Shown here: piece by piece, positions 22,001 to 38,230 of the stretch
How the letters are laid out: every line of letters starts with the position of its first letter
Position numbering within the stretch: position 1 is the stretch's first letter
Assembly: GCA_903878115.1 (NCBI GenBank)
Contig: CAIRGO010000137.1
Coordinates: 1-38,459 of the forward strand
Direction of reading: 5' to 3'
Length of the DNA stretch: 38,459 nucleotides
Source: Akkermansiaceae bacterium
Lineage (GTDB): Bacteria > Verrucomicrobiota > Verrucomicrobiia > Verrucomicrobiales > Akkermansiaceae
Notes under the pieces: model-generated
What the model was told of the DNA's origin: nothing
Database searches by the model: none
Seen by the model: the letters and a program-made list of their open reading frames with translations, nothing else
Translations under genes and position numbers: made by a program

Positions 22001-25000
22001 TGGCAGAGTTTGAACTTACGTTACTTACTCCCAGGACAGTAGTGCCGTCCCTAAATGTCATTGTGCCCGTAGCTCCCGCAGATATCGCAGCAGTGAAGGT
22101 AACTGTGGAGCCATAGGGACCTGTGACGAGAGGAGAAGATTGGAGGGTTGTGGATGATGCAAAGGCTGCGGGAATTGCATTTACCTGAGCTGAGTCGGCA
22201 CTTTCTCCGGCAATATTGATCGTGGACAACTGATAATAGTAGTTGGTGCCATTGACAGCAGTGCTATCGACAAAGCTAGTAGAAGTAGTATTTCCAATAA
22301 CGGTGTAGGGACCTCCGCTGATGAGAGATCGTTTCACATAGTAGCTATCAGCACCTGCCGCGCCCGTCCAATTCAGTGCGATGTTGTTGTTCCTTGGTGT
22401 GGCAGTGAGATTTGTCGGTGCAGCAGAAATTAGGCCACTAATTTCAATAGAAAGGGCAGGGGAAGTGCTGCTAGAGTTGTTCACGTTTCCAGTATATTGT
22501 GCGGTAATGCTGCGCAAACCGATGGACAGGTTACTGGACGAGAAACTGGCCTGAAAAGATCCGTTCAAGACACTGGTGCCCAGCAGTGTGATGCCATCGT
22601 AGAATGCCACGTTGCCGGTTGGCGAGGTGCCGCTTACCGTGGCGGTGAAGGTCAGGGGAGAGCCCTGATTGGCCGGCGTGCTGCCGCCTGTTAGAGCGAG
22701 TGCGGTGGTGGTCGATGGAAGGATGGTAATCGTGCCGGCGCCAGTGAAGTAGGTGTCGTTCTTGTTGGCGGCTGGAGAGGTGGTCGAGCCATAGGTGCCG
22801 GGAGGCATCGTTGTTCCGCCGAGGCTGAGCGAGGTGATCATGCGGTTTCCGGTGTAGTTCAAGTTGGCCTTGCCGCCGGTTGCGATGATTATCGCGCCGG
22901 GCCCCACCGCGGCGGCCGCCGAATAACGAATGGTGCCTGCCTGGATCGTGGTGGGGCCGGTGTAGCTGTTCGTGCCGGTCATAGTCCATTGTGTTGTTCC
23001 GATGGTTGTAAGTCCGCCCGATCCGCGGATGTTGCCGGTGATTTGGAAGCCGCCCGTGGTGCCGAAACTGAATGTGGTGATGCCGGTCAGAGTGACGGGG
23101 CCGGCGAGGTAACTGGTGAAGCTGTTGCCGCCGGTCACGGTCGCGCCGTTCAAGGTGATGGGATTGGTCAAATTGGTCCGGTTGACCAGGAGGGTGGCGT
23201 TGGGGTTGATCGTCACCGGCCCGCTTCCGAAGAACGGGGTAACGATGTCGCTCGCCGGGAAGGTAACCTTGCCGGCGTTTAGAATGGTTCCGCCACTGTA
23301 AGTGTTGTTGATGTTGTTGATCGTCAAGGTTCCAGGGTTGTCCTTGGTGAATCCGCCGCTGCCGGATATCAGGCTTGATAGTGTGACAGCACCGCCCCCA
23401 TTGCCGCCGAAGTTGGTCATGGCGGCGAGGACGAGCGGTGTGCCAATGGTCACCGCGTTGGAGCTATTTTGATTAAACTGGGGTAGGATGGTGCCATTGG
23501 CGGAAAAGGTGATGCTGTTAGTACCTGCGAGCGTGACCGCAGCGGCTACATTCATTTGATTGAGCTGGAATCCGTTGTTCAGGTCATGGGTCGCAGTGTA
23601 GGTGCCCGTCGGAGTGAAATTGAGAGTATAGAAGGGCTGACCGGCGGCTGCGGGAGCGGTGGCCGGATTCCACCTGGCGGCGGTGCTAAGGTTTCCGGAA
23701 ACGGCACTGCCCCAGGTAAAGCTCACCGGCTGACCTACTTGGATACCAATGGAAACGGTTGCGGGACTCGAGTTGCTGGTGCCATTGTTGACAAGAAAAG
23801 TAAAGCTGTCCGATCCGCTGAAATTCGTTGTCGGAGTGTAGGTTAGGTTCGGAGCGGTCCCGCTGAGAATTCCGTTGCTGGGCGGGGAGATGATCGTGTA
23901 GGTGAGAGTGCCGCCACTACCCGTCAAAGTAATCGCTTGGGGAGTGTTTTGTACCAGGCTAACACTTTGCGAATGGGCGTAGGCTCTGCGATCCGTGATA
24001 CCAGCGCCATCATAAAGCCATTCAGGGCCTATGAGCGCACCGTTGGCGCCTGCAAAAGATGGGCCGGTCCATTTAAGCTTTGCTACGGCAGAACCAGTGT
24101 TTTCATAATAGTTCAATTGCAAGTCAACCATCTGGCCTGCGGTAAGGCTTACTGATGCCCCGTCTTTCCAGTTTGTTGTCTGATCCACGTAATCATCGAG
24201 AACCAGAACTCCGTTGAGATACAAGTGGACCCCGTCGCTGTTGAGCGTCGAGAAAGTATAAGTTCCTGTTTCAGGTATTCGCAAAAGACCGCTCCAGCGA
24301 ACGCTAAATGTGTCTGCGCCGAGCAATGCGTTAGGCGTGGCAGTGCCCCAGTCGAAATTTACCTGCGCATCGGTCCGAGTAAGTTTCAAATTGGTGAAGT
24401 TGACATTGTCAAAATATTCACCTTTCAGGCCAGTGCCGGCGGTGCCGACAATGACGCTCACCGTGCCCGGTGCAGAGGGGTAGGAGGCCCCCAAGTTATC
24501 GATCACTTGAAAAGTGAAATAATCTGGCCCCGTATAGCCGGAATCAGGTGTGTAGGTGAGATTCGGTGCTGTGCCGGTAAGCGTGCCATGGGGAGGATCG
24601 GTCACGTTGGTGAAAGTGACGGATGAACGGGGAGAAGAGCCAGTGAGAGTGATGGCCTTGGGGCCGGTGGTGGAAGTAACTTGGGTGTTTGCCACGGACA
24701 AGCCTGGAACCTGAGTCGTCGCGGTGATAGAGCCTTCAATCGAGGCGATGGTGGAGACGAGCGTTGTATATTGAGTTGAGGTCGGGCTCCATTCCGCGAG
24801 GTAGGTTCTGAGCGTTGGCAAGGTCCAGCGGGCGGCATCACCATAGGCAGCCAGCGCATTGAGACCTGCAATAATGGTCCTGTCGGATCCCCATTCGAAG
24901 CCCACGGGAATATTCAACATGGCCAATGCGTAGGGAATTCCCTCGCTGACTTTGTATTTCGAGAGCGTCTTGATTCCATTGGCACGGGAATCGGCACTCC

Positions 25001-27245
25001 ACATCCGGTCGGCCAGACACTCGATCTCGACGACCTTGAAGAAGTCGGGAATAAGCGCCTGCACGTCTGTTAGAGGGAGTTTGTCGAAGCAGAACCTAGA
25101 TGCGCCGGAGCGGGAGTAGGAATCCGGTTGTTTCAATCCGGCCTGAACCGCAGGATAGAGCAGGCTTTTGGAGGCGTTAATGGTGTAATCGCGGATGTTG
25201 CCGCCACCGTAGATAGCATCGCCGAACAGGGCCAAAGACAGGTAATTGTTTGACATCTGGATCGGGTCGCTCCAGGCGATGACATCGGGGTTGGTTGCGT
25301 TGGCAGTGAACCTCGTGAGCATCGTGTCGCGGTGCGCGCTGGCCGTGGCGGGGGGGTAGCTGCGAATCGCGGATGCGGCTTTGGCGCGGACCCAGAGATC
25401 AGTCTCTGCCGTTTTGTCGAGGCGTTGGACGATGCTTGGCAAGGCGGTGCTGTCGTTGAGAAGACCGAGAGCTTGGCAGGCACCCATGCGACCGTTGGCA
25501 TTCGTGCCAGTGACCATGTTACGCACGGTGGTGAGGTCGGCGCCACTGAGCGTGCGCTTTCCAAGTTCGATGGCGGCGTAATGGCGCACCACGGGATCGT
25601 AGTCGCTGAGGGAAGTGATCAACTGCGCGTTGGTGAAACTTGGGCTATCCACTTTGAAATTCGCGGCGGCGACTGCGTGGGCGACCGTTGTAGCATCCAG
25701 CGCGAGCGGAGGCGGATTGGCAGGAATATCCCTCTTGCCAGTGATGTGGAGACGTTGCAGGGGCAGCGCGTAAGTAAGGATGTAGCAAGCGGTGGCGTTC
25801 ATGCTATAGTAGCCGCTCGCGCCCAAATAAGTGCCGTCGGAGGTGGTGCCGCCGCCGTATTGTTCGGCGCCGTCGTAAGCGAAAGAGCCATCGGTGCGAC
25901 GCGAGAGATCGAGATGCCAGCGCACAGGTTTCAAATGTTCCGCCACGGCGAGGGCTCCGCCCATGTTGGCGCCCATCGCACTCCATAGGTAACTGAAACC
26001 CTGACCAGTGTGGCCATACTCGCGGCCTCTGTAACTGGCGGTGGTGACGCGCGAATAGTATTCGGTTTCCGCGGCGCGTCCGGACTGCAAGCCGAAGAGC
26101 ACGGCGCACATCGGGTCTTTGCCATTGGAAGAGTGCCCGCTGATGAAGGGTTCGTGCTCTCCATACGGAATTGGTCCCTTGTTGACATAAAAGGCAAAGA
26201 AGGCGGAGCCTCGCTGGATCGCGCCGTCAATTTCCGGATCAATCGTTTGTCCGCCTACTAGCAGCGCCTTCTTGCCTAGCACCATGGCCATGTTGGCAAC
26301 GATCCCTACCGCATTTACCGGACCATAGCCACTGCCCATGCGACGACCGGAGCCATCGGGCCTCAATACCGACGGGCCATGACCGAATGTGCCATTGATG
26401 GTCTGCGACTGCGCGAGCTTGAGCGTATAGCTGTTGATGCCGGGCAGCACGTTGGCATCGCTCGTTGCTAGGTAATACTCCGAGAGAAACAAGCCCGTAT
26501 AGCTCCAGTCCCAAGTTGGCAGCGAGTTGTTCACCGGACCTGCGTTCGCCAGCGAGCGAGCATACGTTTGCAAGCGGGACTGCACCGCGGCATAGTCGGA
26601 ATCACCCGATTGAACCCCAGCTAACAATGCCAAACCACTGATGGCATCACTCCAACCGCTGGTTAGGAAGTTTTGGTCGGCGAGGAGTTGGCTGACCAAC
26701 TTGTTACGGGCGTTGGCGAGAATCTTGGTTGACTTAGGGCAGGAGTATGGAGCGGTGGCGGTGTAATTGCCCATGATCGTCATGACGATATTCTCATCGG
26801 TGGTGACACCGGCGCGCCAGCGTTTGACCCGCAGGGTGCCGGCCCCAGTTTTCTCGGCCTCGCCGATCGCTGCGCCAAAGGCCTTGCGGGCATCGCTGGA
26901 AAAAAGCGGCACGGAGCCGCTGCTGGCCGCCATCGCGCCTAGGATCACATCGTCCACCGCCAGTACGGCGTTGCCCGGCGAGCTAGCCACGGTGATCAGG
27001 ATTTGTCGGCTTTCGCCAGTCATGGTTCCATCCGCGCCATGAGTATTACCGGATCCGCCGCTCAGATAAATCCAGCCGCGCAGACCGGTGGGTCCGAGAT
27101 TATAGGTTTCAGCATATTTCGGTGTGCTAGTGGTAGAGATCTTCAATGCGGCGATTGCTCCAGCGGCAGTGAGGTCTGGCGGAGCAGCTTGAATCGATAG
27201 CGTAAATATGGCAACGATAATCAAATAAAGCGCAGTTAAGAACAT
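19026..27245 (-). CDS. Giant secreted mosaic protein: DUF6288, HEAT, Ig, PA14, autotransporter-type repeats, MBG/YDG
   Basis: The protein has 2739 residues from ATG 27245. A signal peptide (MFLTALYLIIVAIFTLSIQA) leads a DUF6288-type module (about 26-515; PDZ-like GPTGLRGWIY, then an alpha/alpha barrel). HEAT-like helices follow (530-850), then an Ig-like domain (850-935), PA14 (936-1069; GLKGEYFDN), Ig (1092-1167), autotransporter-associated strand repeats (1167-1510; NTYSGGTILNAG, NSYTGPTTIQAGT), Ig_3-type, Fn3, Ig_3-type, then MBG/YDG repeats (1786-2361), Ig_3 and two tandem MBG units (2454-2605). The C-terminus has a Ca-type DDPDHDGLSNLMEYALN. It is probably a surface-attached or released protein; no sortase or PEP-CTERM signal is visible. 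An in-frame ATG at 27329 could give a longer basic n-region. Composition varies strongly along the gene. Confidence 0.9.
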   Translation of the reverse strand: MFLTALYLIIVAIFTLSIQAAPPDLTAAGAIAALKISTTSTPKYAETYNLGPTGLRGWIYLSGGSGNTHGADGTMTGESRQILITVASSPGNAVLAVDDVILGAMAASSGSVPLFSSDARKAFGAAIGEAEKTGAGTLRVKRWRAGVTTDENIVMTIMGNYTATAPYSCPKSTKILANARNKLVSQLLADQNFLTSGWSDAISGLALLAGVQSGDSDYAAVQSRLQTYARSLANAGPVNNSLPTWDWSYTGLFLSEYYLATSDANVLPGINSYTLKLAQSQTINGTFGHGPSVLRPDGSGRRMGSGYGPVNAVGIVANMAMVLGKKALLVGGQTIDPEIDGAIQRGSAFFAFYVNKGPIPYGEHEPFISGHSSNGKDPMCAVLFGLQSGRAAETEYYSRVTTASYRGREYGHTGQGFSYLWSAMGANMGGALAVAEHLKPVRWHLDLSRRTDGSFAYDGAEQYGGGTTSDGTYLGASGYYSMNATACYILTYALPLQRLHITGKRDIPANPPPLALDATTVAHAVAAANFKVDSPSFTNAQLITSLSDYDPVVRHYAAIELGKRTLSGADLTTVRNMVTGTNANGRMGACQALGLLNDSTALPSIVQRLDKTAETDLWVRAKAASAIRSYPPATASAHRDTMLTRFTANATNPDVIAWSDPIQMSNNYLSLALFGDAIYGGGNIRDYTINASKSLLYPAVQAGLKQPDSYSRSGASRFCFDKLPLTDVQALIPDFFKVVEIECLADRMWSADSRANGIKTLSKYKVSEGIPYALAMLNIPVGFEWGSDRTIIAGLNALAAYGDAARWTLPTLRTYLAEWSPTSTQYTTLVSTIASIEGSITATTQVPGLSVANTQVTSTTGPKAITLTGSSPRSSVTFTNVTDPPHGTLTGTAPNLTYTPDSGYTGPDYFTFQVIDNLGASYPSAPGTVSVIVGTAGTGLKGEYFDNVNFTNLKLTRTDAQVNFDWGTATPNALLGADTFSVRWSGLLRIPETGTYTFSTLNSDGVHLYLNGVLVLDDYVDQTTNWKDGASVSLTAGQMVDLQLNYYENTGSAVAKLKWTGPSFAGANGALIGPEWLYDGAGITDRRAYAHSQSVSLVQNTPQAITLTGSGGTLTYTIISPPSNGILSGTAPNLTYTPTTNFSGSDSFTFLVNNGTSNSSPATVSIGIQVGQPVSFTWGSAVSGNLSTAARWNPATAPAAAGQPFYTLNFTPTGTYTATHDLNNGFQLNQMNVAAAVTLAGTNSITFSANGTILPQFNQNSSNAVTIGTPLVLAAMTNFGGNGGGAVTLSSLISGSGGFTKDNPGTLTINNINNTYSGGTILNAGKVTFPASDIVTPFFGSGPVTINPNATLLVNRTNLTNPITLNGATVTGGNSFTSYLAGPVTLTGITTFSFGTTGGFQITGNIRGSGGLTTIGTTQWTMTGTNSYTGPTTIQAGTIRYSAAAAVGPGAIIIATGGKANLNYTGNRMITSLSLGGTTMPPGTYGSTTSPAANKNDTYFTGAGTITILPSTTTALALTGGSTPANQGSPLTFTATVSGTSPTGNVAFYDGITLLGTSVLNGSFQASFSSSNLSIGLRSITAQYTGNVNNSSSTSPALSIEISGLISAAPTNLTATPRNNNIALNWTGAAGADSYYVKRSLISGGPYTVIGNTTSTSFVDSTAVNGTNYYYQLSTINIAGESADSAQVNAIPAAFASSTTLQSSPLVTGPYGSTVTFTAAISAGATGTMTFRDGTTVLGVSNVSSNSATFAISTLSMSSHSITATYSGDAIFSGSVSTPLIYTVTAKPLTITGVTASNKVYDGNTAALLSGGSLSGGIVAGETVTIAPGIGTFASSNAGTWAITTSSFSLAGANAGNYALSAQPTVANASITPRSLQLSGTRMYDGTAIATAEILSISNNLDGSNLTLTGSANLTAKDSGTQTISTIMPPSLVQKTKGSTGVNAATSFSLTAVAPIAGNTMIAVISTRGTSANIVTSITQTGVSIGTWLRASQSNNSGITTEIWYASNLPSGSGTGITINQGNFRSAAVVMEYSGVLTSNPLDKVSQTNSVGTGISASTGSTATTIQANELWIGGIGFASSANTLGTPSNSFAQVDNAASTNGTATSNARVYALERIVSSPGTATSSGTISSSTQWAGSIATFRTVTPTTLAISGSAASNYSLIGATGSVQIAPKALAISGLTGVPKAYDGTPAATVSGSATLLPSQAPGAGTTSDGKSYSGDIVTLSGSSSATFTNSTAASAKPLTVNGFTLTGTNNGNYSLIQPTGLTADITPRQISVTALNQSKFYGQTLTFGDGESLFSSSGLQNGETIGTVSLACSGGGATAAAGLYPIIPNAATGGTFLATNYSIIYEPGQLNIQALSTATSVTTSLSSSIYGSMVTLTATVVPAPDGGMVQFYDNSLALGVPMTIITGQAQITNNNLSSGSHTITAIYSGNTNFTGSSASVINLTVNKATPTITTAPTATNITYGQTLADANLSGGVGSVPGTFAFTAPTTAPSAGTLTQSVVFTPTDIANYLPVNTRVNVTVNKALTTITSTPTASSITFGQTLGSSTLSGGAGSVPGSFAFAIPSSAPTIGTASHGVTFTPADTANHEIASTNVSVSVNPALTTYLTWSQTAEQSLTAGLNNGPTDDPDHDGLSNLMEYALNTVPMIANSSPVLQSFTTVGVNKYLRLTMMKNPLASDLTYAIEVTSDMESNVWTELPTAANGNELSGTDTLPVSSTQRRFIRLKVTANP
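19431..19886 (-). repeat. Two tandem MBG-type repeat units within the giant protein
   Basis: Units at 19656-19886 and 19431-19655 encode parallel ~76-residue blocks. Each opens with V-N-K-A, then T-I-T-(T/S)-x-P-T-A, I-T-(Y/F)-GQTL, LSGG-x-GSVPG, F-A-F, and ends VTFTP-x-D-x-AN with a V-(N/S)-V strand. Both are of the MBG (Mucin-binding-like, bacterial Ig) type, with similarity clear at protein level and only patchy at DNA level. Confidence 0.75.
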
Positions 27246-27476
27246 GCGTTTTTTGATTCCTAACGAAACTTTTTTAGTGAAGTAATTCACGAGAATGCGC
27301 TTATGATGGCAAAACTTTAAGAGATTCATTAGGTTTATTAGAAAATTGTAGCAGTATGGGTTAATGAGCCAGATTGAGTTAAAGCGCGCGCGACAAAGTA
27401 ATTGATCCATGAATTTACTCTAAAATGGCAAAGCTGCATTATGCCTCATTGGTAGAGAATTGCAATAATTAATTTC

Positions 27477-27513: not shown

Positions 27514-28599
27514 ATGAATCCGATTCAACAAATTCCGAAACATGAACTAGTGGTTAAGCGTATTAAGGATGGATTAGGAGCAGGGCGTTGGAGTGGTAGT
27601 GTGCCCGGCGTTCAGCGTTTAGCAACTGAGCTTGATGTTTCTCCGCATACTGTGAGGCGTGCATTGAAAAAGCTTGAAGTCGAGGGGTTTCTTGGTGGGC
27701 GTGGGCTAGGGCGCAGCCGAGGTATCACGGCGGTCAGCGAATCACATTACCGCAAGCGCCCATTGCGCATCGCAATTTTGCGACATGATATGCATCTATC
27801 AGATAGCCCGCAAACGTCCCTAGTGTTGACCGAGATCATTCATTCGCTGGAAGTTGCGGGGATGAATGTATTTTATTGCAAAAAGTCTCTAACTGAAATG
27901 AAAAACGACGTGCAACGCATGACTCGTCAGTTGGTATTAGCGAAGGCGGATGCATGGATTGTTGAAGCAGGTTCACGCCCGCTGTTAGAGTGGTGCTCGT
28001 CACAATCGACTCCTTGTATGGCGTTGTATGGTCGCACGGGCGACTTGCCTATAGCTCGTACGGGCCCAGATATCGTTGATGCATGCCGCACTGCTATGCG
28101 TCAACTCCTGGCATTGGGGCATAGTCGTATTGTCCATATTGTTCGTGAAGCGCGCCGCAAGCCAATACCAGGGGCAAGTGAACGAACGCTCCTTGAGGAA
28201 ATGACAAATTCTGGAGTGATGATAGGTCCATATAATTTGCCCGATTGGGAGGAAACTCCAGAAGGCTTTGGTCGCTTGCTCGAATCCTTATTTAGGCGCT
28301 CGCCACCTACAGCTTTGATCATCGATGAAATTCCTCGATTGCTTGCCACGATCGCTTTTCTCGCTCGCCGTGGTATCAAGGTGCCTGAACATATTTCGAT
28401 AGTTTCCACCGACTGTGATGCACTACTTGATTGGTGTCGTCCTGGCATTGCTCACATGCAATATGATAGTAATCTCATCGTTCGCCGCGTGGTGCGTTGG
28501 GTGAAAGCAGTTCGAAAAGGGAATCAAGACTGTAAAGTGATTAATGTTCCTGCGCAATTCGTTCCAGGTGGAAGCATCGGCCCTGCATACATTCGGTAA
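27514..28599 (+). CDS. GntR-type helix-turn-helix regulator with LacI-like sugar-binding sensor
   Basis: The 361-residue protein combines an N-terminal GntR-type winged helix (about 1-72; VPGVQRLATELDVSPHTVRRALKKLEVEGFL) with a periplasmic-binding-protein-like sensor (about 85-361; RIAILRHDMHLSD, ARTGPDIVDACRTAMRQLLALGHSRIVHI, ISIVSTDCDALLDW). This architecture is frequent in Verrucomicrobia and usually controls sugar-use genes. It is transcribed away from the giant secreted protein and towards the rhamnosidase-like gene, which starts 95 bases downstream. It may therefore control one or both, with a sugar released from plant or algal polymer as ligand. That link is inference from position. 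Confidence 0.85.
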   Translation: MNPIQQIPKHELVVKRIKDGLGAGRWSGSVPGVQRLATELDVSPHTVRRALKKLEVEGFLGGRGLGRSRGITAVSESHYRKRPLRIAILRHDMHLSDSPQTSLVLTEIIHSLEVAGMNVFYCKKSLTEMKNDVQRMTRQLVLAKADAWIVEAGSRPLLEWCSSQSTPCMALYGRTGDLPIARTGPDIVDACRTAMRQLLALGHSRIVHIVREARRKPIPGASERTLLEEMTNSGVMIGPYNLPDWEETPEGFGRLLESLFRRSPPTALIIDEIPRLLATIAFLARRGIKVPEHISIVSTDCDALLDWCRPGIAHMQYDSNLIVRRVVRWVKAVRKGNQDCKVINVPAQFVPGGSIGPAYIR

Positions 28600-28694
28600 A
28601 TTTTTCACGAATCGTTTTCCCTCATGATGGTCATATAGAATTCTCGCAAAAAATCTAAGATTGCTTCCGAGCACTTCTATCAATAAGGTCGGGT

Positions 28695-30902
28695 ATGGCA
28701 AAATGGTTGATTTGCATTAGTGTGTTAGTTGGGGAAATGGGCGTGCTGTTCGCAGCTCCTGATAAATTGTCGAATACTGACGAGTCATTACCTGTTGGTT
28801 CGATGATCAAAGATTATGGCTTAAAAGATTATGTCCGCACTTCTGTAGATCTTCCGCATGCGGAACCGCAGCCATGGAAACTTGTTTGTGGATTGCCTTA
28901 CAATTGTCATTTCCAGCCGTGGATCGAAATCGAGGCTGCTGAAGGTAGTAAGATACTTTACAATTCTAGTAATCCGTTAGTGCTTTATTTGACCAAGACG
29001 GAATCAGTCACCACGGCCACAAACCAATCCATTTATGAGGCAAAAAACTGGGTCAGCGGGGAAGGGGCGATCTATACGATTCCCGCTGGTGCTAAAGTGA
29101 AATCCGTGAAGTATCGCGAGACCGGTTTCGACACCACCTTCGCTGGTTCTTTTGTTTGCAACGACGAAGATTATAACATTCTTTGGAAAAAAGCGGCGCG
29201 GACTGCTTACATTTGCATGAGGGATCATTTTTACGATTGTCCCGACCGCGAACGCGTCGGATTTTGGGGCGATGGCACACCTGAGATGAACCAATGTTTT
29301 TATGTGTTTGATCCTTCCGCTCATCGACTCGCGAAAGACTTAGTGCGGCGAAAACTAGAACCAAAATTCTATCCAGGGCAACACCTCGAGTTCCTCGGCG
29401 AGTATGGATTATGGTTCTACTACCTGCACTCGGGAGACCTTGAATCGATGCGCATGATTTATGCACCTACCAAAGAGTTTCTTTTTACCACTTATCAATT
29501 TGGCAATCCAAAGACTTGGTTCGATTGGGGTAAGGAGGTCAAGGATACTGCTGTCATCGAAACCTGTTTCTATTACAATTGCCTGCAAACATTGAGAAAA
29601 ATAGCACTTGTCACCGGACACGATGCCGATGTTCCAGAGATCGATGCCAAGCTCACTGCAATCAGCAGCACCTTCGATAAAAACTACTGGAAAGACGGAT
29701 ATTACATGTCCTCTCAAGTAACGAGTCCAGATGATCGGGCGAATGCGATGGCGGTGAATTCCGGTCTTGCCGATCGCTCCAAATGGCAAGCGATTTACGA
29801 TAATGTTCTTACTAAAAAAACTTATGCTAGCTGTTTCTTTGATCGATGGGTATTCGAAGCTCTTTGCACTATGGGCAAACAAGAATACGCGCTGATACGA
29901 ATGCATGAGCGATACAAAACGATGATTCCTTGTAGTTTTACGACGCTTTGGGAGCATTATGATCGCTGGTGGGCATCGCGTATTGATGCTTACGATGATG
30001 CGTCTTCGCTGAATCACGGTTGGAATCCTCCGGCGTTAAATCTCTCACAAACCATCTGCGGCATCACTCCTGTCGAGCCAGGGTGGACAACTTACCAAGT
30101 AATGCCGAAAGAGTCGTTTTTAACTGCGATCAACGTAGTAGTTCCCACCATCAAAGGTAAAGTGACGATGGATTTGAAAAAGACCGCATCTGAGTATGCG
30201 CTTAGCCTAGATTCTCCGCCCGCGACCATTGCCATCGTCGGAATTCCCAAATCCTCATTTACGAAAATGGACAGCATCAAGGTTAATGGCACAATAGTTT
30301 GGAATGGTGCCTTCATCGCTGGCATGGATGGAGTTTCGTGGCAGGGAGAAGATGCCGAATTCATCAAGTTCAAGGTGACACCAGGAACTTGGAAATTTTT
30401 CGCGCAAGGAAATCTCCCACTTAGCTCGCCCAAAGCAATTCCTCAGAAACCAGCGGACGATATCGTGTTAGACAAAAAAGGCTGGGCAGCGAGTGCCTCT
30501 ATACCCGATGGAACTTTCCTGTTCAGTGGTGCAAAAATTCCCATCGATTGTAGCGCGGCGAATGCGATCGATGGTGATCATTGGAATGGATGGCGCGATA
30601 AGACAAAGACTCAATATCCAGGTCAGTGGTTTCAGCTTGATATGAAAAAAGTCCAGGATTTTGACAAAATCGTATTAGATAACACCTGGGCGTTATGGGA
30701 TTTCCCCGTCACATATTCGGTTGCGGTATCCAACGATGCTGTCACATGGAGCCCTCCCATAGCGAGCGGCTCTGGTGGCTTAGGAATCAATGCCATCAGC
30801 TTTCCGCGACAATCAGCGCGCTATATTCGCATCACGCAAAACTCATCGAGTGATACATATTATTGGTCCATTTTTGAACTCGATGTGTGTCGGAAAAAAT
30901 GA
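28695..30902 (+). CDS. Secreted GH78-like alpha-L-rhamnosidase with C-terminal discoidin-type domain
   Basis: The 735-residue protein has a signal peptide (residues 1-21). Beta modules lead to an alpha/alpha six-hairpin domain. The block RDHFYDCPDRERVGFWGDG (176-194) matches the acid-containing motif of GH78 rhamnosidases (CPxRDERLGWTGD type; Glu186 is the likely general acid), and CSFTTLWEHYDRW supplies the second carboxylate (Glu420). ITPVEPGWTTYQVMP is the usual family strand after the barrel. The C-terminal ~130 residues resemble an F5/8 type C (CBM32-like) domain (WFQLDMKKVQDF, ARYIRITQNSS). It likely releases L-rhamnose from pectin- or fucoidan-like glycans outside the cytoplasm. The exact linkage is not deducible. 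It sits 95 bases after the regulator and converges on bioF. Confidence 0.8.
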   Translation: MAKWLICISVLVGEMGVLFAAPDKLSNTDESLPVGSMIKDYGLKDYVRTSVDLPHAEPQPWKLVCGLPYNCHFQPWIEIEAAEGSKILYNSSNPLVLYLTKTESVTTATNQSIYEAKNWVSGEGAIYTIPAGAKVKSVKYRETGFDTTFAGSFVCNDEDYNILWKKAARTAYICMRDHFYDCPDRERVGFWGDGTPEMNQCFYVFDPSAHRLAKDLVRRKLEPKFYPGQHLEFLGEYGLWFYYLHSGDLESMRMIYAPTKEFLFTTYQFGNPKTWFDWGKEVKDTAVIETCFYYNCLQTLRKIALVTGHDADVPEIDAKLTAISSTFDKNYWKDGYYMSSQVTSPDDRANAMAVNSGLADRSKWQAIYDNVLTKKTYASCFFDRWVFEALCTMGKQEYALIRMHERYKTMIPCSFTTLWEHYDRWWASRIDAYDDASSLNHGWNPPALNLSQTICGITPVEPGWTTYQVMPKESFLTAINVVVPTIKGKVTMDLKKTASEYALSLDSPPATIAIVGIPKSSFTKMDSIKVNGTIVWNGAFIAGMDGVSWQGEDAEFIKFKVTPGTWKFFAQGNLPLSSPKAIPQKPADDIVLDKKGWAASASIPDGTFLFSGAKIPIDCSAANAIDGDHWNGWRDKTKTQYPGQWFQLDMKKVQDFDKIVLDNTWALWDFPVTYSVAVSNDAVTWSPPIASGSGGLGINAISFPRQSARYIRITQNSSSDTYYWSIFELDVCRKK

Positions 30903-30914
30903 ACCTGCGAAAAT

Positions 30915-32153
30915 TTACATATCAGCAAGCAGCAGTTTTAACTCAGCAATTTCTTCCTGCGTATGGCGTGCAGAAAGCGAAATTCTTAGGCGCGCGGTAT
31001 TCCTAGGCACGGTAGGGTAGCGGATCGCTGGCACGAGGAAGCCGGCCTTATTCAGTGTTGCGGATGCCGATAACGCTTGCTCATTGCTTCCTAAAATCCA
31101 AGGAATGATGGGCGTGCAATGCTTGTCATGCATCGTTCCTAACGTGAACTGAGCGATATTGTTTTGCAATTGTTGACGCAATTTCTTGCCTTCCTCAGAG
31201 CGGATAATGGTGAGAGCTTGGCAGGCTGCATGAGCGAGGGCAGGGGGAGGGGCTGTGGAGTAAATAAACGAACGTGCACGATTGATTAGCAGATCAATCA
31301 CGACTGATGAACTGGCTATAAATCCACCGGCTAAGCCAGCGGCTTTACTGAGCGTGCCCATCTGCAGATCAATACGTTTTTGCAAACCTATTTGTTCTGC
31401 GAGACCTGCACCATGCTCTCCAAAAATACCGAAACCGTGCGCTTCATCGACGAGTAATAAGGCATCGTATTTTTCTTTCAAGCGAACCAATTCTTCCAGT
31501 GGTGCGAGATCGCCGTCCATACTAAAAACGGATTCGGTAACGATCATGATGCGAGGTTCACTGCCATGCTGTGCTCTGAGGGCATGAAGAATTTTTTCCA
31601 AATTGATGCAGTCGCTGTGAGGAAATACCCGCAAAGTAGCACCCGATAGGCGTGCCGCATCGATTAAGCAAGCATGGCTTAGTTTGTCGAGAATGACAAA
31701 ATCCCCGCGCTGGAGCAACGCGGGGATCGTTCCCATCGCCGCTGCGAAACCTGTGCTAAAAAGCAGTGCTCTATCGCTGGCTTTTAACTCGGCAATGGAA
31801 TCCTCCAGCGCGACATGTGCTGGACTAGTGCCGCAGATCAAGCGAGATGCCGTGGCGCCGTGGCCGTAGGTTCTTATGCCCTCCACGAAAGCCTCTGCAA
31901 TGGCGGGATGACTAGCCAACCCGAGGTAATCATTGGCCGCGAAATTCCGCATTTCTCGTTGATCCTGAGCGCTTGTACAAGTTCCTTTATTGCCGTAGGG
32001 CGTGACTTTGCGCCATAAACCCTGCGCGATAATTTCTTCACGTTCTTCTTGCAGCGATCTCATCATGCTAGCGTTCAGATACCAGAAATCTACTGATTTA
32101 CCAGCAGAACTTACGAATAGGCCGTATTTCTCCTGTTGCTCATTTTGGCTCAT
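30915..32153 (-). CDS. bioF: 8-amino-7-oxononanoate synthase-like PLP enzyme
   Basis: BioF condenses pimeloyl-thioester and alanine to 8-amino-7-oxononanoate in biotin synthesis. The protein shows FAANDYLGLASHP, GATASRLICGTSPAH, His160, the PLP-aspartate/histidine pair in LLVDEAHGFG (Asp236, His239) and the Schiff-base lysine Lys270 in MGTLSKAAGLAGG. Start ATG 32153 has a GGAG ten bases upstream, the only convincing Shine-Dalgarno motif I noticed in the window. It gives 412 residues with a 30-residue tail (MSQNEQQEKYGLF). The internal ATG at 32066 would give 383 residues, closer to E. coli length. Related activities (glycine C-acetyltransferase, serine palmitoyltransferase) belong to the same family, but biotin synthesis fits best. 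No other bio gene is adjacent. Confidence 0.87.
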   Translation of the reverse strand: MSQNEQQEKYGLFVSSAGKSVDFWYLNASMMRSLQEEREEIIAQGLWRKVTPYGNKGTCTSAQDQREMRNFAANDYLGLASHPAIAEAFVEGIRTYGHGATASRLICGTSPAHVALEDSIAELKASDRALLFSTGFAAAMGTIPALLQRGDFVILDKLSHACLIDAARLSGATLRVFPHSDCINLEKILHALRAQHGSEPRIMIVTESVFSMDGDLAPLEELVRLKEKYDALLLVDEAHGFGIFGEHGAGLAEQIGLQKRIDLQMGTLSKAAGLAGGFIASSSVVIDLLINRARSFIYSTAPPPALAHAACQALTIIRSEEGKKLRQQLQNNIAQFTLGTMHDKHCTPIIPWILGSNEQALSASATLNKAGFLVPAIRYPTVPRNTARLRISLSARHTQEEIAELKLLLADM

Positions 32154-32193
32154 GATCAGTAAGCTCCGCTGGGTAACATCGTTAAGATTTTTG

Positions 32194-32222
32194 TTTTTAT
32201 TTAGCTTAGCGCAGGTTGTAAA
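32194..32222 (-). promoter_or_regulatory. Putative promoter for bioF
   Basis: On the minus strand, TTTACA (32217-32222 read in reverse) and TAAAAA (32194-32199) are spaced by 17 bases. The -35 box is the left arm of the inverted repeat at 32216-32245. The leader to ATG 32153 is about 35 bases and contains the GGAG. Confidence 0.45.
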
Positions 32223-32245
32223 TTTCCTAAATAATGTATTTACAA
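32216..32245. promoter_or_regulatory. Perfect 8-base inverted repeat, BirA-operator-like
   Basis: TTGTAAAT (32216-32223) and ATTTACAA (32238-32245) are perfect complements around 14 bases. The known BirA consensus is TTGTAAACC, a 14-16 base spacer and GGTTTACAA; the outer TTGTAAA/TTTACAA halves match here, but the CC/GG inner bases are absent and the halves lie closer. Each arm also contains a TTTACA that can serve as -35 for the divergent genes, so the symmetry might reflect two back-to-back promoters instead. Confidence 0.5.
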
Positions 32246-32266
32246 ATAGTATTAAAATGATACATT
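32239..32266 (+). promoter_or_regulatory. Putative promoter for the Verru_Chthon A-like gene
   Basis: TTTACA (32239-32244), a 16-base spacer and TACATT (32261-32266) precede ATG 32291, with a leader of about 18 bases. The -35 lies in the right arm of the inverted repeat. Confidence 0.4.
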
Positions 32267-32290
32267 GCTCCAACCCAAAAAAGCTAAGTT

Positions 32291-35200
32291 ATGCCAAAAT
32301 CCCCAAAATTTCTGTATTCAAAATCATTTCTCTTTGCTCGCAGAGATGGTTTTACGCTTATTTTAACGATAAGCTTGATGGTGTTGTTGACCATGATTGC
32401 GATTGGAGTGCTTTCGATGTCAACCTTGACACTGAGAAGTTCCTCCCAAGGAAATGCTGCTGGTGTAGCTCGTGCTAATGCGAAAATGGCGATGATGATT
32501 GCCATCGGTGATTTGCAAAAAAACTTAGGTCCTGATCGAGCAATCTCGGCAACTTCAGAGCTCATCACCGCCACTCCTACCAAACCAAATCTCACAGGAG
32601 CATGGTCATCTTGGGCTCTCGATCCATCCGCTACTTCTTTGAATTATACAGCAGAAAAAACCAATCGTTTTCGCAAGTGGTTGGTGTCTGATATCAATCC
32701 AACGGCAACGAATCTTCCGAATTATGCAAGCACGGGAGCGATCGCTGATCCGGTTGAGTTGGTTGCCAATGGCACGCTCGGTGCAGGCGCGATCGCGGCA
32801 GATAAAGTCAACGCTGGTCGTGTTCCTGTTAGTCAGAATGGAATCAGAAGTGGAAATTTCGCTTGGCATGTAGCAGATGAATCGGTCAAAGCTCGTATCA
32901 ATTTGTATCGCGATCCAAATCAAGGTGATACCTTAGCGAAGCGAAGAGCTTTGCTGGGTGGTCATCGTCCTGATGTGACGCAAATCAGGGCGTCAGATAG
33001 CACGGCATTGGATTTTTTACCTGCAGATGACACTGTGGCGAATTTCACTACAGCGAAAGGTCTTGAGCCTAAGCTAATCGACATGAATCAGTTTGATGTT
33101 TTTACCAATTCCAAAAGAATCGGCAAATTCCGCAATAGTGTGACTCCCTATTCAGTGGGACTTCTCACCGATGTCCGCAATGGTGGATTAAAACAAGATT
33201 TGTCATCGTTGTTTGAAATGGCGACCATGCCATCAGTGTATAACGGTCAAAAACTCTATCAGTCCACTCATAGAATTACTGGCGTAACGGATCCTTTCTG
33301 GTCAGCATTGCAAGGATATTACACTACTTATAGAGATATCACGAATTCTGACACGAATCCAACTTATTACAAATCCGCTCAGGAAACCATCACGACTACT
33401 ACATTTACGCCGCCACGTACTTTTTATGCAGCTCCTGTCATCGCGAAGGTAGAAGTTCTGTTCACCTATGTCACGCGTGATTCACATTCCGGTTGGGTGA
33501 ATTCGCTAAAAGCGGACGATCCGAATATGGTCCGCATGGGGCATTTGCTATACGTGCCTCTTGTCACCTTGCACAATCCTTACAACGTGAATATTCAGTT
33601 TGATAAAATGCAGGTGGTGATTCGCAATATTCCCGTCGCCTTTCATTTTTACGTTAACAATGTGCCACAGAGCAATGGTCTTTGTTCGCTCAATGAAATG
33701 TTTGTCAATAATGGGCAAAAGGGTGAAAAATCCTTCGCACTTGATATCGCCAATTGGCCTAGCCCGGGCAGTTCTAGTCCATCCGGTGTGATTACGATGA
33801 GACCAGGGCAAACCTTGGTCTGTGGCCCGTATTTGAATCCACAGGCGAGTTTCAGCAATTCTCAAGGTACAAATTTTTTCGATTATCAGAATAATCTAAC
33901 AGGAGTGGATATGGCAGGTAATGTCACACTCCCCGTTCCTGCAAAACCAGGTTTTGCAGGCAAGGCGGTAGGCTTTGATGTGGACTGGATCACGCCGCCA
34001 CATCTTACTTCTGGGCAATCCAATGACGGAAACAAAGGAGTTTTAGGATTAAAAGATGCCGACCAGATCTACATGGAGTACGGAATCAGGCAGCCGACAC
34101 GCGGCGTGAATACTCAGTTTGAAGTGTCGGCAACGATTACTTCGCGTGGACGCAGTATGACCTATGGGGGATTAAATTTTCAATACAACGATCAAGGAAC
34201 ACTTTCTAAATATTTCAATAAGACGTATCGGTATCCCGCTACGGGATCAATTAGTGTGCCCGAAACTTATGCTTCCAATACCACTCCGATCTCCGCACAA
34301 GGACGAGCCAAAGCGGTGGCATTGTTTTCCGCGTATGCACGCACCACTAATGGGGGTGTCTATGAAACCAACCGCAGGACAGTATTAGGCGGAGCGCTCA
34401 ATGTGCAACGTGATGGTCAGTTGGCAGGTAAGCCATTTTTGGAAAATAATCCCGCACGTTCTGTAGTGAGCATTGATTTAACCAATGATGCTCCAGGCAT
34501 GCATTCACACGAGCTTAACTTCCAGCCGCTTTCGGGAGAAGTGGATGACATTTTTGAGATCGATGCACTGTCGCGCTCGAATTATCTAACAGGAAATACC
34601 ACCTTGCGAGGCGTTAAATCAGGATCATATCTTGAATTGCCGACTGGTCCGATGCAGACGATTGCAGATTTTCGCCGATCCAATGCATTGACAAGCTCTT
34701 ATCTGCCAAACTTTGTGCAACCGGTCTCGAATTCTACAGTATCTGCCTTGATGTCCACCAATCGGGTGTCGGAAACAGGAGTCGCTAGATATGCATTGTT
34801 GGATCACAGCGTTTTGGCGAACCACGCGCTGTATGATCGATTTTATTTTTCGACCATTGCTCCCTATGGGTTAAAACCGGCTACTACCGTGCTTACGGAT
34901 TTCATGAACAGCAATCAGCCGCTTTTATCTCAGTCGTTCACTCCTTATTTGCCGTCGGGGAAAGCTGTCACCGATGTTTCTGCAGAATTGTTAACTGGCG
35001 GCAGGCCTACTGCTGCTGCCTACTTATTGGCTGCAGAATACCAAATGATCAATGGCGCATTCAATGTGAATTCCACATCAGTGCAGGCATGGAAGGCGAT
35101 GTTGTCGTCAATGTCTCGTAGCAAAATGCAAATTTTATGGGCAAGAAATGGCCTGCTTGAAAGCAAAAATAGCGTGATGACACCCATTGCGCCGATGTCA

Positions 35201-35860
35201 CTGGTCAATGGCGGAAATGCAACCGATGCCGCCATCAATGCTGCTGGAATCGATAACGTTCGCACCAATCAGTGGAATGGTTACCGCGAATTATCTCCTA
35301 GCGAAATCGATACTCTAGCAAGATTGATCGTTGATCAAGTACGTTTACGGGGACCATTTCTTTCCATGTCGGAGTTTGTTAATCGCCAGATTGGTCCTGA
35401 TTCGGCGTTAACCAGAGCAGGCGCATTGCAGACAGCCATCAATCTGTCCAATGTGAACAATGCCGTTTTCACCACGCAAATTCCCATCACTGCTGCGGAT
35501 GTTCCTAACGGCAATCTCTATCGAAACAGAACACCATCGATGCTGGTTGGTAATCCCGCAGAAGGCGCTCCAGGATGGATCATGCAGGGCAATTTGCTGC
35601 GAATATTGGAACCGATGGCTACCGTGCGTTCGGATACTTTTGTGATTAGAACATGTGGTGAAGCGACAGATGCGAACGGCGTGGTTACGGCGCGAGTCTA
35701 TGCTGAAGCTGTGGTGCAGCGTGTGCCTGAATACGTAAATCCGATTGACCGCCCATCCGTGAACGTGGATAGTGTTGCCTCTGCCAGTGCTATTAATAAA
35801 GCTTTCGGTCGTCGTTTTAAAATGACATCCTTCCGCTGGCTCGCAAAACAGGAAATTTGA
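32291..35860 (+). CDS. Verru_Chthon cassette protein A-like giant pseudopilin-type protein
   Basis: The 1189-residue protein starts with a basic leader (ARRDGFTLI) and a long hydrophobic helix (about 22-42; LTISLMVLLTMIAIGVLSMS), a type IV pilin-like N-terminus. The glutamate normally at position +5 is missing. The remainder is a large, Asn/Thr-rich extracellular-type region with a C-terminus FGRRFKMTSFRWLAKQEI. This layout matches my recollection of Verru_Chthon cassette protein A (TIGR02600), known from verrucomicrobial genomes and usually found with smaller pilin-like proteins B, C and D. None of B-D is adjacent here. Instead the gene is followed by a 236-residue secreted protein and a subtilase. 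The function is unknown; export by a type II/IV pilus-like system is the natural hypothesis. Confidence 0.82.
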   Translation: MPKSPKFLYSKSFLFARRDGFTLILTISLMVLLTMIAIGVLSMSTLTLRSSSQGNAAGVARANAKMAMMIAIGDLQKNLGPDRAISATSELITATPTKPNLTGAWSSWALDPSATSLNYTAEKTNRFRKWLVSDINPTATNLPNYASTGAIADPVELVANGTLGAGAIAADKVNAGRVPVSQNGIRSGNFAWHVADESVKARINLYRDPNQGDTLAKRRALLGGHRPDVTQIRASDSTALDFLPADDTVANFTTAKGLEPKLIDMNQFDVFTNSKRIGKFRNSVTPYSVGLLTDVRNGGLKQDLSSLFEMATMPSVYNGQKLYQSTHRITGVTDPFWSALQGYYTTYRDITNSDTNPTYYKSAQETITTTTFTPPRTFYAAPVIAKVEVLFTYVTRDSHSGWVNSLKADDPNMVRMGHLLYVPLVTLHNPYNVNIQFDKMQVVIRNIPVAFHFYVNNVPQSNGLCSLNEMFVNNGQKGEKSFALDIANWPSPGSSSPSGVITMRPGQTLVCGPYLNPQASFSNSQGTNFFDYQNNLTGVDMAGNVTLPVPAKPGFAGKAVGFDVDWITPPHLTSGQSNDGNKGVLGLKDADQIYMEYGIRQPTRGVNTQFEVSATITSRGRSMTYGGLNFQYNDQGTLSKYFNKTYRYPATGSISVPETYASNTTPISAQGRAKAVALFSAYARTTNGGVYETNRRTVLGGALNVQRDGQLAGKPFLENNPARSVVSIDLTNDAPGMHSHELNFQPLSGEVDDIFEIDALSRSNYLTGNTTLRGVKSGSYLELPTGPMQTIADFRRSNALTSSYLPNFVQPVSNSTVSALMSTNRVSETGVARYALLDHSVLANHALYDRFYFSTIAPYGLKPATTVLTDFMNSNQPLLSQSFTPYLPSGKAVTDVSAELLTGGRPTAAAYLLAAEYQMINGAFNVNSTSVQAWKAMLSSMSRSKMQILWARNGLLESKNSVMTPIAPMSLVNGGNATDAAINAAGIDNVRTNQWNGYRELSPSEIDTLARLIVDQVRLRGPFLSMSEFVNRQIGPDSALTRAGALQTAINLSNVNNAVFTTQIPITAADVPNGNLYRNRTPSMLVGNPAEGAPGWIMQGNLLRILEPMATVRSDTFVIRTCGEATDANGVVTARVYAEAVVQRVPEYVNPIDRPSVNVDSVASASAINKAFGRRFKMTSFRWLAKQEI

Positions 35861-35865
35861 CCATT

Positions 35866-36576
35866 ATGTTGATTCGCATTATTACTTCTCTGATGATTGG
35901 CTGCATTGCTGGGTCATCAGCCTTTTCTCAAGAAAAAACCGCAGCGGTTCAAATCCGTGCCGTATTGCACGACCCCGTTCATCCCGTGGCGGATTTATAC
36001 ATCGCTGATCCAAGTGGGGCCATCGTGAAGTTGAATTTACTCGCTGAGGGGTTTTCCCGTGCTCAATTTACACTGCCGCAAAATGGCAGTATTGTGCTGT
36101 TTGATAAAGCCAATGTTGATCCAACAAAACCAGCGGAATCCATCGCGGCTACGTGCGCCATACCATCAGACGCGAAGCGCTTGATGATGTTGATTTTTCC
36201 TGCGCCTGCTGATGCGAAACCCGCGTATCGAGCAATTTTGATCAACGAAGACCCTGCTGTTTTTGCCAATGGTCAATCACGCGTGATCAATTTGACTTCT
36301 GCCGAAACAGCGTTAGAGATGGGTGAGCACAAATTGCCTTTGCGTCCAGGTAAAATCACCGATGTGCCAGTGGTTAAGAAAGTAAATGAATACAACATGG
36401 CTCAGACGAATTTTTACTATAAAGAAGGGGAGACATGGATGCCATTCACAGAGCGACAATTGCAGTATCTCGATTCGATTCGGCGCGTCTTTCTTATCTA
36501 CGTTACCCCAGGGTCCACGCAGCCATTTGTAACGACGATTGTGGACAACGCCCCGGCGATTATGCCCAATCCTTAA
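35866..36576 (+). CDS. Secreted 236-residue protein of the Verru_Chthon A neighbourhood
   Basis: The protein has a signal peptide (MLIRIITSLMIGCIAGSSAFS) and a mature part of alternating short strands, including DLYIADPSGAIVKLNLLAEG and GSIVLFDKANVDP, then AYRAILINEDPAVFANGQSRVINLTSAE. This pattern suggests a beta-rich exported protein of unknown function. I recognise no catalytic motif. The ATG at 35866 lies five bases after the stop codon of the giant pseudopilin-type gene, so the two genes are almost certainly co-transcribed and possibly coupled. An alternative TTG start at 35857 overlaps the upstream stop but is less likely. The subtilase gene follows 46 bases later. Confidence 0.75.
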   Translation: MLIRIITSLMIGCIAGSSAFSQEKTAAVQIRAVLHDPVHPVADLYIADPSGAIVKLNLLAEGFSRAQFTLPQNGSIVLFDKANVDPTKPAESIAATCAIPSDAKRLMMLIFPAPADAKPAYRAILINEDPAVFANGQSRVINLTSAETALEMGEHKLPLRPGKITDVPVVKKVNEYNMAQTNFYYKEGETWMPFTERQLQYLDSIRRVFLIYVTPGSTQPFVTTIVDNAPAIMPNP

Positions 36577-36622
36577 TTTTTCAAACAAATCTCCGCTACG
36601 GCGGTGATATACCTATGTAAGA

Positions 36623-38230
36623 ATGAACTTTCACAAATCAACGTTGGGTTTTCTGCTTACTTTGTTAGTGGCTATTGTCTGCGGATGGTTCATCGGTAAT
36701 TTCTCTTGGAATGATGCGACTGCTGTTGCCGAGAAGCCGAAGGAAAATCCTAAGCCTGTTATTCAAATTCCTGAGCCAGCATGGGGGAAATTATCTTCTT
36801 CGCAAGAGCGTAAACAAGGGTTTCGCGCTGATAATGACGCGCTGGAAGCAGGAGCGGTGCCTGGACAGAGAGCGTTGGCATTTTCCTCGTTAGATGCACT
36901 CGAAGCTTTTCTCAAAAGAGCGGGAAGTCGCGTCAGTGTGTTAGGTCGGATGGATGGTCTTAAAGCCTTACGCATTGGCTTTTTGAATCCTGATGATCTA
37001 GCTGATTTGTTAGATGGTTCAGAGGAGCAAGGTTATATTTTTCCAGCCTACACTCCTAATCCCTCTGGTGGAGTGGTCCAAGATGATGCTGTTCCCCTAG
37101 GCAATCAGTTGCTCGCCTGGTTAGGGCTTACTTCGATGGATGTCACGCTGGGCAAAGGAGTGAAAATCGCAATCCTCGACACTGGTGTTGTCTCACATGC
37201 AGCTCTTTCGTCTAACGTGAAAAATTTCATGTTAGTTCCGGCCTCCGCCAATCAATCCGAATGGAATGGCCACGGCACTGCGGCGGCCTCATTGATCATT
37301 GGCAATTCCTCCACCATCCCAGGTGCTGCTCCTAGTGCCACTCTCAGTTCTTATCGTATCGCAGATGATACAGGCGCATCTGATAGTTGGAAAATGGCGG
37401 AGGCGATTATGATGGCGGCGGATGCAGGCAATCAAATCATTTCCATCTCGATGGGGTCGTATGGCAATAGCGTAATCCTGCAGCAAGCGATTGTTTATGC
37501 GCAGTCGAAAAATGTCGTAGTGGTCGCTTCGAGCGGCAATGATAGTTATGGCCAATCGGCTTACCCAGCAGCCTATGAGGGCGTCATTTCTGCCGTGGCA
37601 GTTGATGCGACAAATAATCATTTGCTGTTTTCTAACCAAGCATTGCAATCTGGTCTTGCGGCACCAGGGTGGGGGGTAAATGCAGCCTATCCGGGTGATC
37701 GTATTACTTCATTTTCTGGCACTTCTGCTTCCGCACCGATTATCGCAGGGTCGATCGCGGCAACGATGTCGATGAACAACCTATCCGCCCAACAATCAGT
37801 AGCGATGATTTATCAACATGTGAACGAGGCCGATGCTGCAGGATACGATACAAATACAGGTGCGGGTGTCGTCAACTTGGGACGGATCGCAAATCGCGAT
37901 ACGTTGAACATTTACGATGGCGCGGTGGCTTCTAATGTCATTTCTCCGCCAACCAACACGGATAGCGCTAGCGTTCAGGTAAACATTCAAAATCAAGGCA
38001 CCACAACATTGATGAATGTGCCTGTTCAAGTGACGACACCATCGGGAGTGAAAGATCTAACGGTTTCTTCGCTAGCACCTGGTGCCGTGAAGAGTTTTAC
38101 GATTCCTTTATCCAATAGTTCGTTTGACAAAGGTGCTAGCGTTTCTGTTAGTTCGCGGATCTCGAGTCAGGATGCGGTTTTGTTTAATAATCAGCGCACC
38201 ACGACGTATAGTCCAGCGCCTGCGCCCTAG
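36623..38230 (+). CDS. Subtilisin-family (S8) serine protease with C-terminal CARDB-like domain
   Basis: The 535-residue protein has an N-terminal hydrophobic segment (about 8-26), a signal peptide or membrane anchor, then a likely propeptide (about 60-160). The catalytic domain has the complete S8 triad: Asp186 in AILDTGVV, His217 in WNGHGTAAAS and Ser368 in SGTSASAPI, plus oxyanion-hole Asn306 in VASSGNDS. The C-terminal part (about 435-530) has a CARDB-like beta fold (VQVNIQNQGTTTLMNVPVQV). It is therefore probably a secreted or anchored protease. Being the third gene after the pseudopilin-type protein, it may process that protein, its partner, or external substrates; this is inference. 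No Shine-Dalgarno motif precedes the ATG. Confidence 0.9.
   Translation: MNFHKSTLGFLLTLLVAIVCGWFIGNFSWNDATAVAEKPKENPKPVIQIPEPAWGKLSSSQERKQGFRADNDALEAGAVPGQRALAFSSLDALEAFLKRAGSRVSVLGRMDGLKALRIGFLNPDDLADLLDGSEEQGYIFPAYTPNPSGGVVQDDAVPLGNQLLAWLGLTSMDVTLGKGVKIAILDTGVVSHAALSSNVKNFMLVPASANQSEWNGHGTAAASLIIGNSSTIPGAAPSATLSSYRIADDTGASDSWKMAEAIMMAADAGNQIISISMGSYGNSVILQQAIVYAQSKNVVVVASSGNDSYGQSAYPAAYEGVISAVAVDATNNHLLFSNQALQSGLAAPGWGVNAAYPGDRITSFSGTSASAPIIAGSIAATMSMNNLSAQQSVAMIYQHVNEADAAGYDTNTGAGVVNLGRIANRDTLNIYDGAVASNVISPPTNTDSASVQVNIQNQGTTTLMNVPVQVTTPSGVKDLTVSSLAPGAVKSFTIPLSNSSFDKGASVSVSSRISSQDAVLFNNQRTTTYSPAPAP

Follow-up and report, generated by a model that had tools for sequence, protein, structure and literature searches.

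It has long been an open question how type II secretion systems recognize their folded clients. The pseudopilus of these systems carries a tip complex of minor pseudopilins that is topped by GspK, also called XcpX (PMC6211770). In Thermus thermophilus, the GspK-like pilin ComZ carries an inserted beta domain and binds its neighbor, the pilin PilA2 (PMC6561018). Lectin modules grafted onto modular pilins are also known (PMC9934059). One verrucomicrobial genome encodes 67 homologues of a PulG-like pseudopilin, and its type II secretion system could export its alginases (PMC13274419). A further described family is Verru_Chthon A (TIGR02600), whose true cassettes also contain the pilins B, C and D; searches for Verru_Chthon, TIGR02600, or Akkermansiaceae together with pseudopilin returned nothing in the literature searched. 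Here, we describe a locus from an Akkermansiaceae bacterium that holds one member of a large and so far undescribed family of gene pairs, accompanied by an optional protease.

The window, meaning the whole stretch of DNA analyzed, is a complete contig (C137; 38,459 nucleotides) of a 4.41-Mb draft genome. Three intact, co-directional genes lie at its end on the forward strand. The first, A (32291 to 35860), encodes a predicted giant GspK-like minor pseudopilin of 1,189 amino acids; the second, B (35866 to 36576), encodes an exported partner of 236 amino acids; and the third, S (36623 to 38230), encodes a subtilase of 535 amino acids with an N-terminal hydrophobic signal or anchor, an S8 domain, and a CARDB-like C terminus. 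These open reading frames bear out a preliminary reading made from the sequence alone (the sequence-only reading), which had described a tight, co-directional trio: B begins at an ATG five bases past the A stop codon (a TTG at 35857, taken as the start instead, would make B overlap A), and S starts 46 bases behind B. That reading had also noted that pilins B to D are missing; no such gene adjoins A as far as the contig end, 229 bases past S. Upstream of the trio are a 2,794-amino-acid protein with autotransporter-type beta-strand and tandem-95 repeats (19026 to 27410, reverse strand); a regulator that joins a GntR-type DNA-binding end to a LacI-type ligand domain, followed by a secreted protein that resembles alpha-L-rhamnosidases and bears an F5/8 C domain (27514 to 30902, forward strand); and a BioF/KBL-type PLP acyltransferase (30915 to 32273, reverse strand) that is divergent from A and scores 0.2 bits below the bioF cutoff. 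By eye, the gene divergent from A in genomes G010, G023, and G059 has the same orientation as this BioF-like gene and a similar start. Promoter and terminator scans gave no more than the shuffled level.

Protein A resembles Verru_Chthon A in its size, its class III signal without a glutamate at position +5, its multicopy state, and its verrucomicrobial host, but only about 60 to 75 N-terminal residues align. TIGR02600 scored A at 20.8 bits against a cutoff of 332.3, with a match confined to residues 20 to 78, and no A paralogue in the genome passed this cutoff. Alignment of A with true cassette A proteins by hhalign covered 73 N-terminal columns and nothing further, and C-terminal slices of A gave no significant match to those proteins. 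Thus, the proposal that A is "Verru_Chthon A-like" holds for 59 N-terminal residues and fails for the rest of the protein, and assignment of A to Verru_Chthon A by the curated model was rejected. The curated GspK model NF037980 (cutoff, 130 bits) did not list the A protein of the window, and the best paralogue reached 19.0 bits. Searches of A against Pfam yielded no match, and its profile found no credible match among the sequences of solved structures.

The predicted structure of A was more informative. An AlphaFold model built from 60 relatives (mean pLDDT, 91) contains a long N-terminal helix (residues 22 to 79), a GspK-like body, and a large beta-rich region at about residues 380 to 770. 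Foldseek alone ranked GspK only 14th (E value, 0.07); VIA-align placed it first (3ci0_K; Z score, 11.2; RMSD, 3.3; 240 of 280 residues), far ahead of the runner-up chain, which reached a Z score of 3.3. This match extends beyond the N-terminal helix and takes in the whole body of A, including its globular part. The model therefore shows the arrangement that defines the GspK fold, a pilin body with an inserted domain, and suggests that A is a giant GspK-like protein in its manner of working, whereas curated sequence models place it in neither the GspK nor the Verru_Chthon A family.

The signal of A is consistent with this assignment. A carries the class III signal GFTLILTIS, with cleavage predicted after G20 and a leucine at +5. 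The absence of glutamate at +5, which had been pointed out in the sequence-only reading, is confirmed; glutamate is found at this position in none of 60 relatives and in none of 14 true Verru_Chthon A proteins. GspK itself has no glutamate at +5; the absence is thus expected of a GspK-type tip subunit and is no oddity. A does differ from GspK in being about four times larger, in its additional beta-rich region, in its score below the curated cutoff, in its pairing with a two-Ig protein, and in its copy number of about 13 in this genome. No GspH, GspI, or GspJ gene lies beside A, and no major or other minor pseudopilin adjoins the A-B pair. ComZ-PilA2 is a close parallel, in which a GspK-like protein with a large inserted beta domain also has a partner gene next door; however, ComZ has a beta-solenoid as its insert and a pilin as its partner, and its role is DNA uptake (PMC6561018). 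A might instead be an independent surface adhesin or anchor that uses a pilin-like signal outside any pseudopilus, as the very large beta-rich region, the absence of pilin genes beside the pair, and the many diverged copies of A would suggest. We regard this as improbable, since the resemblance to GspK spans the entire body of A and the genome encodes a full assembly machinery.

Protein B is exported, with a signal peptide, and consists of two tandem Ig-like domains in a model of high confidence (pLDDT, 92.9). Pfam searches of 58 members gave stray weak matches and assigned none of them to a family, and the B profile found no credible match among the sequences of solved structures. The best structural match was the ectodomain of PepT2 (Z score, 12.7), which also has two tandem Ig-like domains; however, there is no sequence relation (7 to 9% identity), and the likeness in fold shows no function. 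The extracellular domain of PepT1 and PepT2 binds trypsin (PMC4597091). Kinship of B with cytolysin domain 4 or with AlgF was considered and rejected, as the resemblance in both cases spans one Ig-like domain only.

A and B are inherited together. The genome contains 13 A loci, 11 of them complete, and B lies directly behind A in 10 of the 11, the exception being C164. Among fetched loci, some of which were fetched twice, B was recognized by its profile behind 78 of the 96 A genes that have room behind them, and several of the remaining 18 have B by eye. Distance matrices for A and B were closely correlated over 77 pairs (r = 0.94; shuffled maximum, 0.15), as they were among the paralogous pairs of this genome (r = 0.88). 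Genomes carry about a dozen such pairs, most of them with no protease alongside. The real unit is therefore the A-B pair, and the subtilase is an optional companion; the three genes do not make up a fixed machine. This upholds one part of the claim that the trio acts as a unit, namely the association of A with an exported partner, and not the inclusion of S.

The identity of S as a protease is clear. Peptidase_S8 matched at 107 bits against a Pfam cutoff of 21.8 (E value, 1.5e-30; residues 177 to 413), and the motifs ILDTG, GHGTA, SSGND, and GTSASAP occur in order at residues 184, 216, 303, and 366. The CARDB domain that the sequence-only reading had also assigned to S scored 21.6 bits, just below its cutoff of 22.7. 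S is present as a single copy in this genome, and 101 of the 145 family genomes have it. A survey of relatives for the gene order, which the same reading had proposed, showed that the order recurs: of 117 subtilase loci, 18 have A-B directly upstream of S at a similar distance, comprising 5 loci in the genus of the window (5 of 10 genomes), 11 in genus g7, and 2 in genus g13. The order is absent from most loci in other genera. By a rough estimate, in which about ten A-B pairs are set among several thousand genes and loci are not independent of one another, chance would place A-B beside S at well under one locus in the sample. In six loci of g7, an A gene lies behind S. A C39-like cysteine peptidase gene, a label assigned by reading of the sequence rather than by a family search, stands behind S in 59 of the 117 loci; at three loci in g7 (L099, L244, and L256), A genes flank the subtilase and this peptidase gene on both sides. 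In the tree of A proteins, those encoded next to S are spread over at least two clades and imply eight changes of adjacency, six of them forced by starred branches, so the order may have arisen repeatedly. The A-B-S order is thus real and far above chance, yet it is optional, because most A-B pairs have no S and many genomes have one but not the other.

Two further explanations of the trio can be weighed against this distribution. The first, put forward in the sequence-only reading, treats A, B, and S as a self-contained unit for secretion and processing, with the subtilase trimming either A itself or the substrate of A. Recurrence of the order with similar spacing in three genera, its possibly repeated origin (at least six changes of adjacency), and the fact that subtilases are the commonest family of co-directional downstream neighbor of A-B pairs (12 of 40 in the sample scanned) all speak for such a unit. 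However, the protease is absent beside most A-B pairs; S is missing from every genome sampled in genus g3, most of which have A; other genomes have S and no detected A; and S is followed more often by the C39-like peptidase gene than it is preceded by A-B. We consider a self-contained unit quite unlikely, and trimming of A by the subtilase was not supported. The second explanation is that S is a mere neighbor, an ancestral gene of the family that came to lie beside A-B by chance and was kept there by descent in two genera with no functional link. The wide occurrence of S in the family, the 99 of 117 loci with no A-B upstream, and the A orthologues of G033, G051, and G080, which lie on contigs other than that of S, fit this account. 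Against it, adjacency occurs in three genera and involves A proteins from at least two clades, and some g7 loci also have A on the far side of S; chance alone predicts far fewer cases. On balance, we find it unlikely, although it carries more weight than a self-contained unit. The best reading is that S is a frequent exported neighbor or client of the pair and not a dedicated protease for trimming A.

Other downstream neighbors of A-B pairs are consistent with a client model. Besides subtilases, the co-directional genes behind A-B include sulfatases, alpha-L-fucosidases, and passenger-repeat proteins, as well as housekeeping genes. Signal peptides, called with a crude predictor, were found in 16 of 35 co-directional downstream neighbors other than S, compared to 117 of 485 controls (P = 0.006). 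This excess is compatible with pairs that serve exported clients and is no proof of it.

The genome also encodes what such pairs would need for assembly. The prepilin peptidase that the sequence-only reading had suggested looking for is present, together with three secretins and five matches to the T2SSE ATPase family, of which three are strong and of the GspE/PilB type and two are weaker. We favor the reading, which we think probable, that A is a giant GspK-type tip pseudopilin, that A-B is a multiplied modular pair working on a shared machine, and that S is a plausible client or neighbor. The prepilin peptidase would probably cleave A after G20, as with GspK, and A would then cap a pseudopilus or type IV pilus built by the shared ATPases and secretins of the cell. 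We propose that A, like GspK, can do without a glutamate at +5 because no subunit sits above it to pair with. Its additional beta-rich region of approximately 400 residues would be the likely working part, where A binds either an exported client or a ligand from outside. B, which is co-inherited one to one with A, would leave the cytoplasm via Sec and most likely dock on A as an adaptor, stabilizer, or cargo receptor. Since the pair has multiplied and diverged, each copy probably has a client of its own, in many cases the product of a neighboring gene; at this locus, the exported subtilase beside the pair could plausibly be such a client or a functional neighbor. Against the tip assignment we counted the low Foldseek rank, the failure to pass any curated GspK model, the absence of pilin genes beside the pair, and the housekeeping neighbors.

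A broader and more tentative proposal, to which we give somewhat less than even weight, is that these pairs constitute a large, undescribed family of client-specific pseudopilus tips in Akkermansiaceae-type bacteria. Each giant GspK-like A would join with its own two-Ig adaptor to sort, secrete, or display one given exported enzyme, and a shared machine would be retargeted by swapping a two-gene cassette. If so, the dozen diverged tips of a genome, every one of them matched with an adaptor, would amount to a natural experiment on client choice. Proteins that lie outside Pfam, and that the Verru_Chthon A model catches at the N terminus only, hereby gain a testable fold and a partner.

Pilin genes do occur elsewhere in this genome and in its relatives. 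Contig C195 carries one set of pilin genes with a K-like gene, all of which score below the cassette model cutoffs, and the B profile did not match this locus. The K-like gene of this set (L033, 5517 to 8083, reverse strand) is split into two open reading frames in different frames, by a frameshift or an assembly error. True cassette A passes the TIGR02600 cutoff in 73 of 113 genomes of the order; in this family, no match was obtained at an E value of 1e-30 among the genomes listed (18 unmatched genomes are not on the list). The true cassettes, with A and the pilins B to D, occur in sister families. In 20 sampled true loci, no B-type partner was detected nearby (B profile, E values up to 1); three pilin genes usually adjoin A, which often comes after a very large repeat protein. 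In several sister-family loci, such a repeat protein sits immediately before the true Verru_Chthon A gene; in the window, the 2,794-amino-acid repeat protein lies upstream of the trio on the opposite strand.
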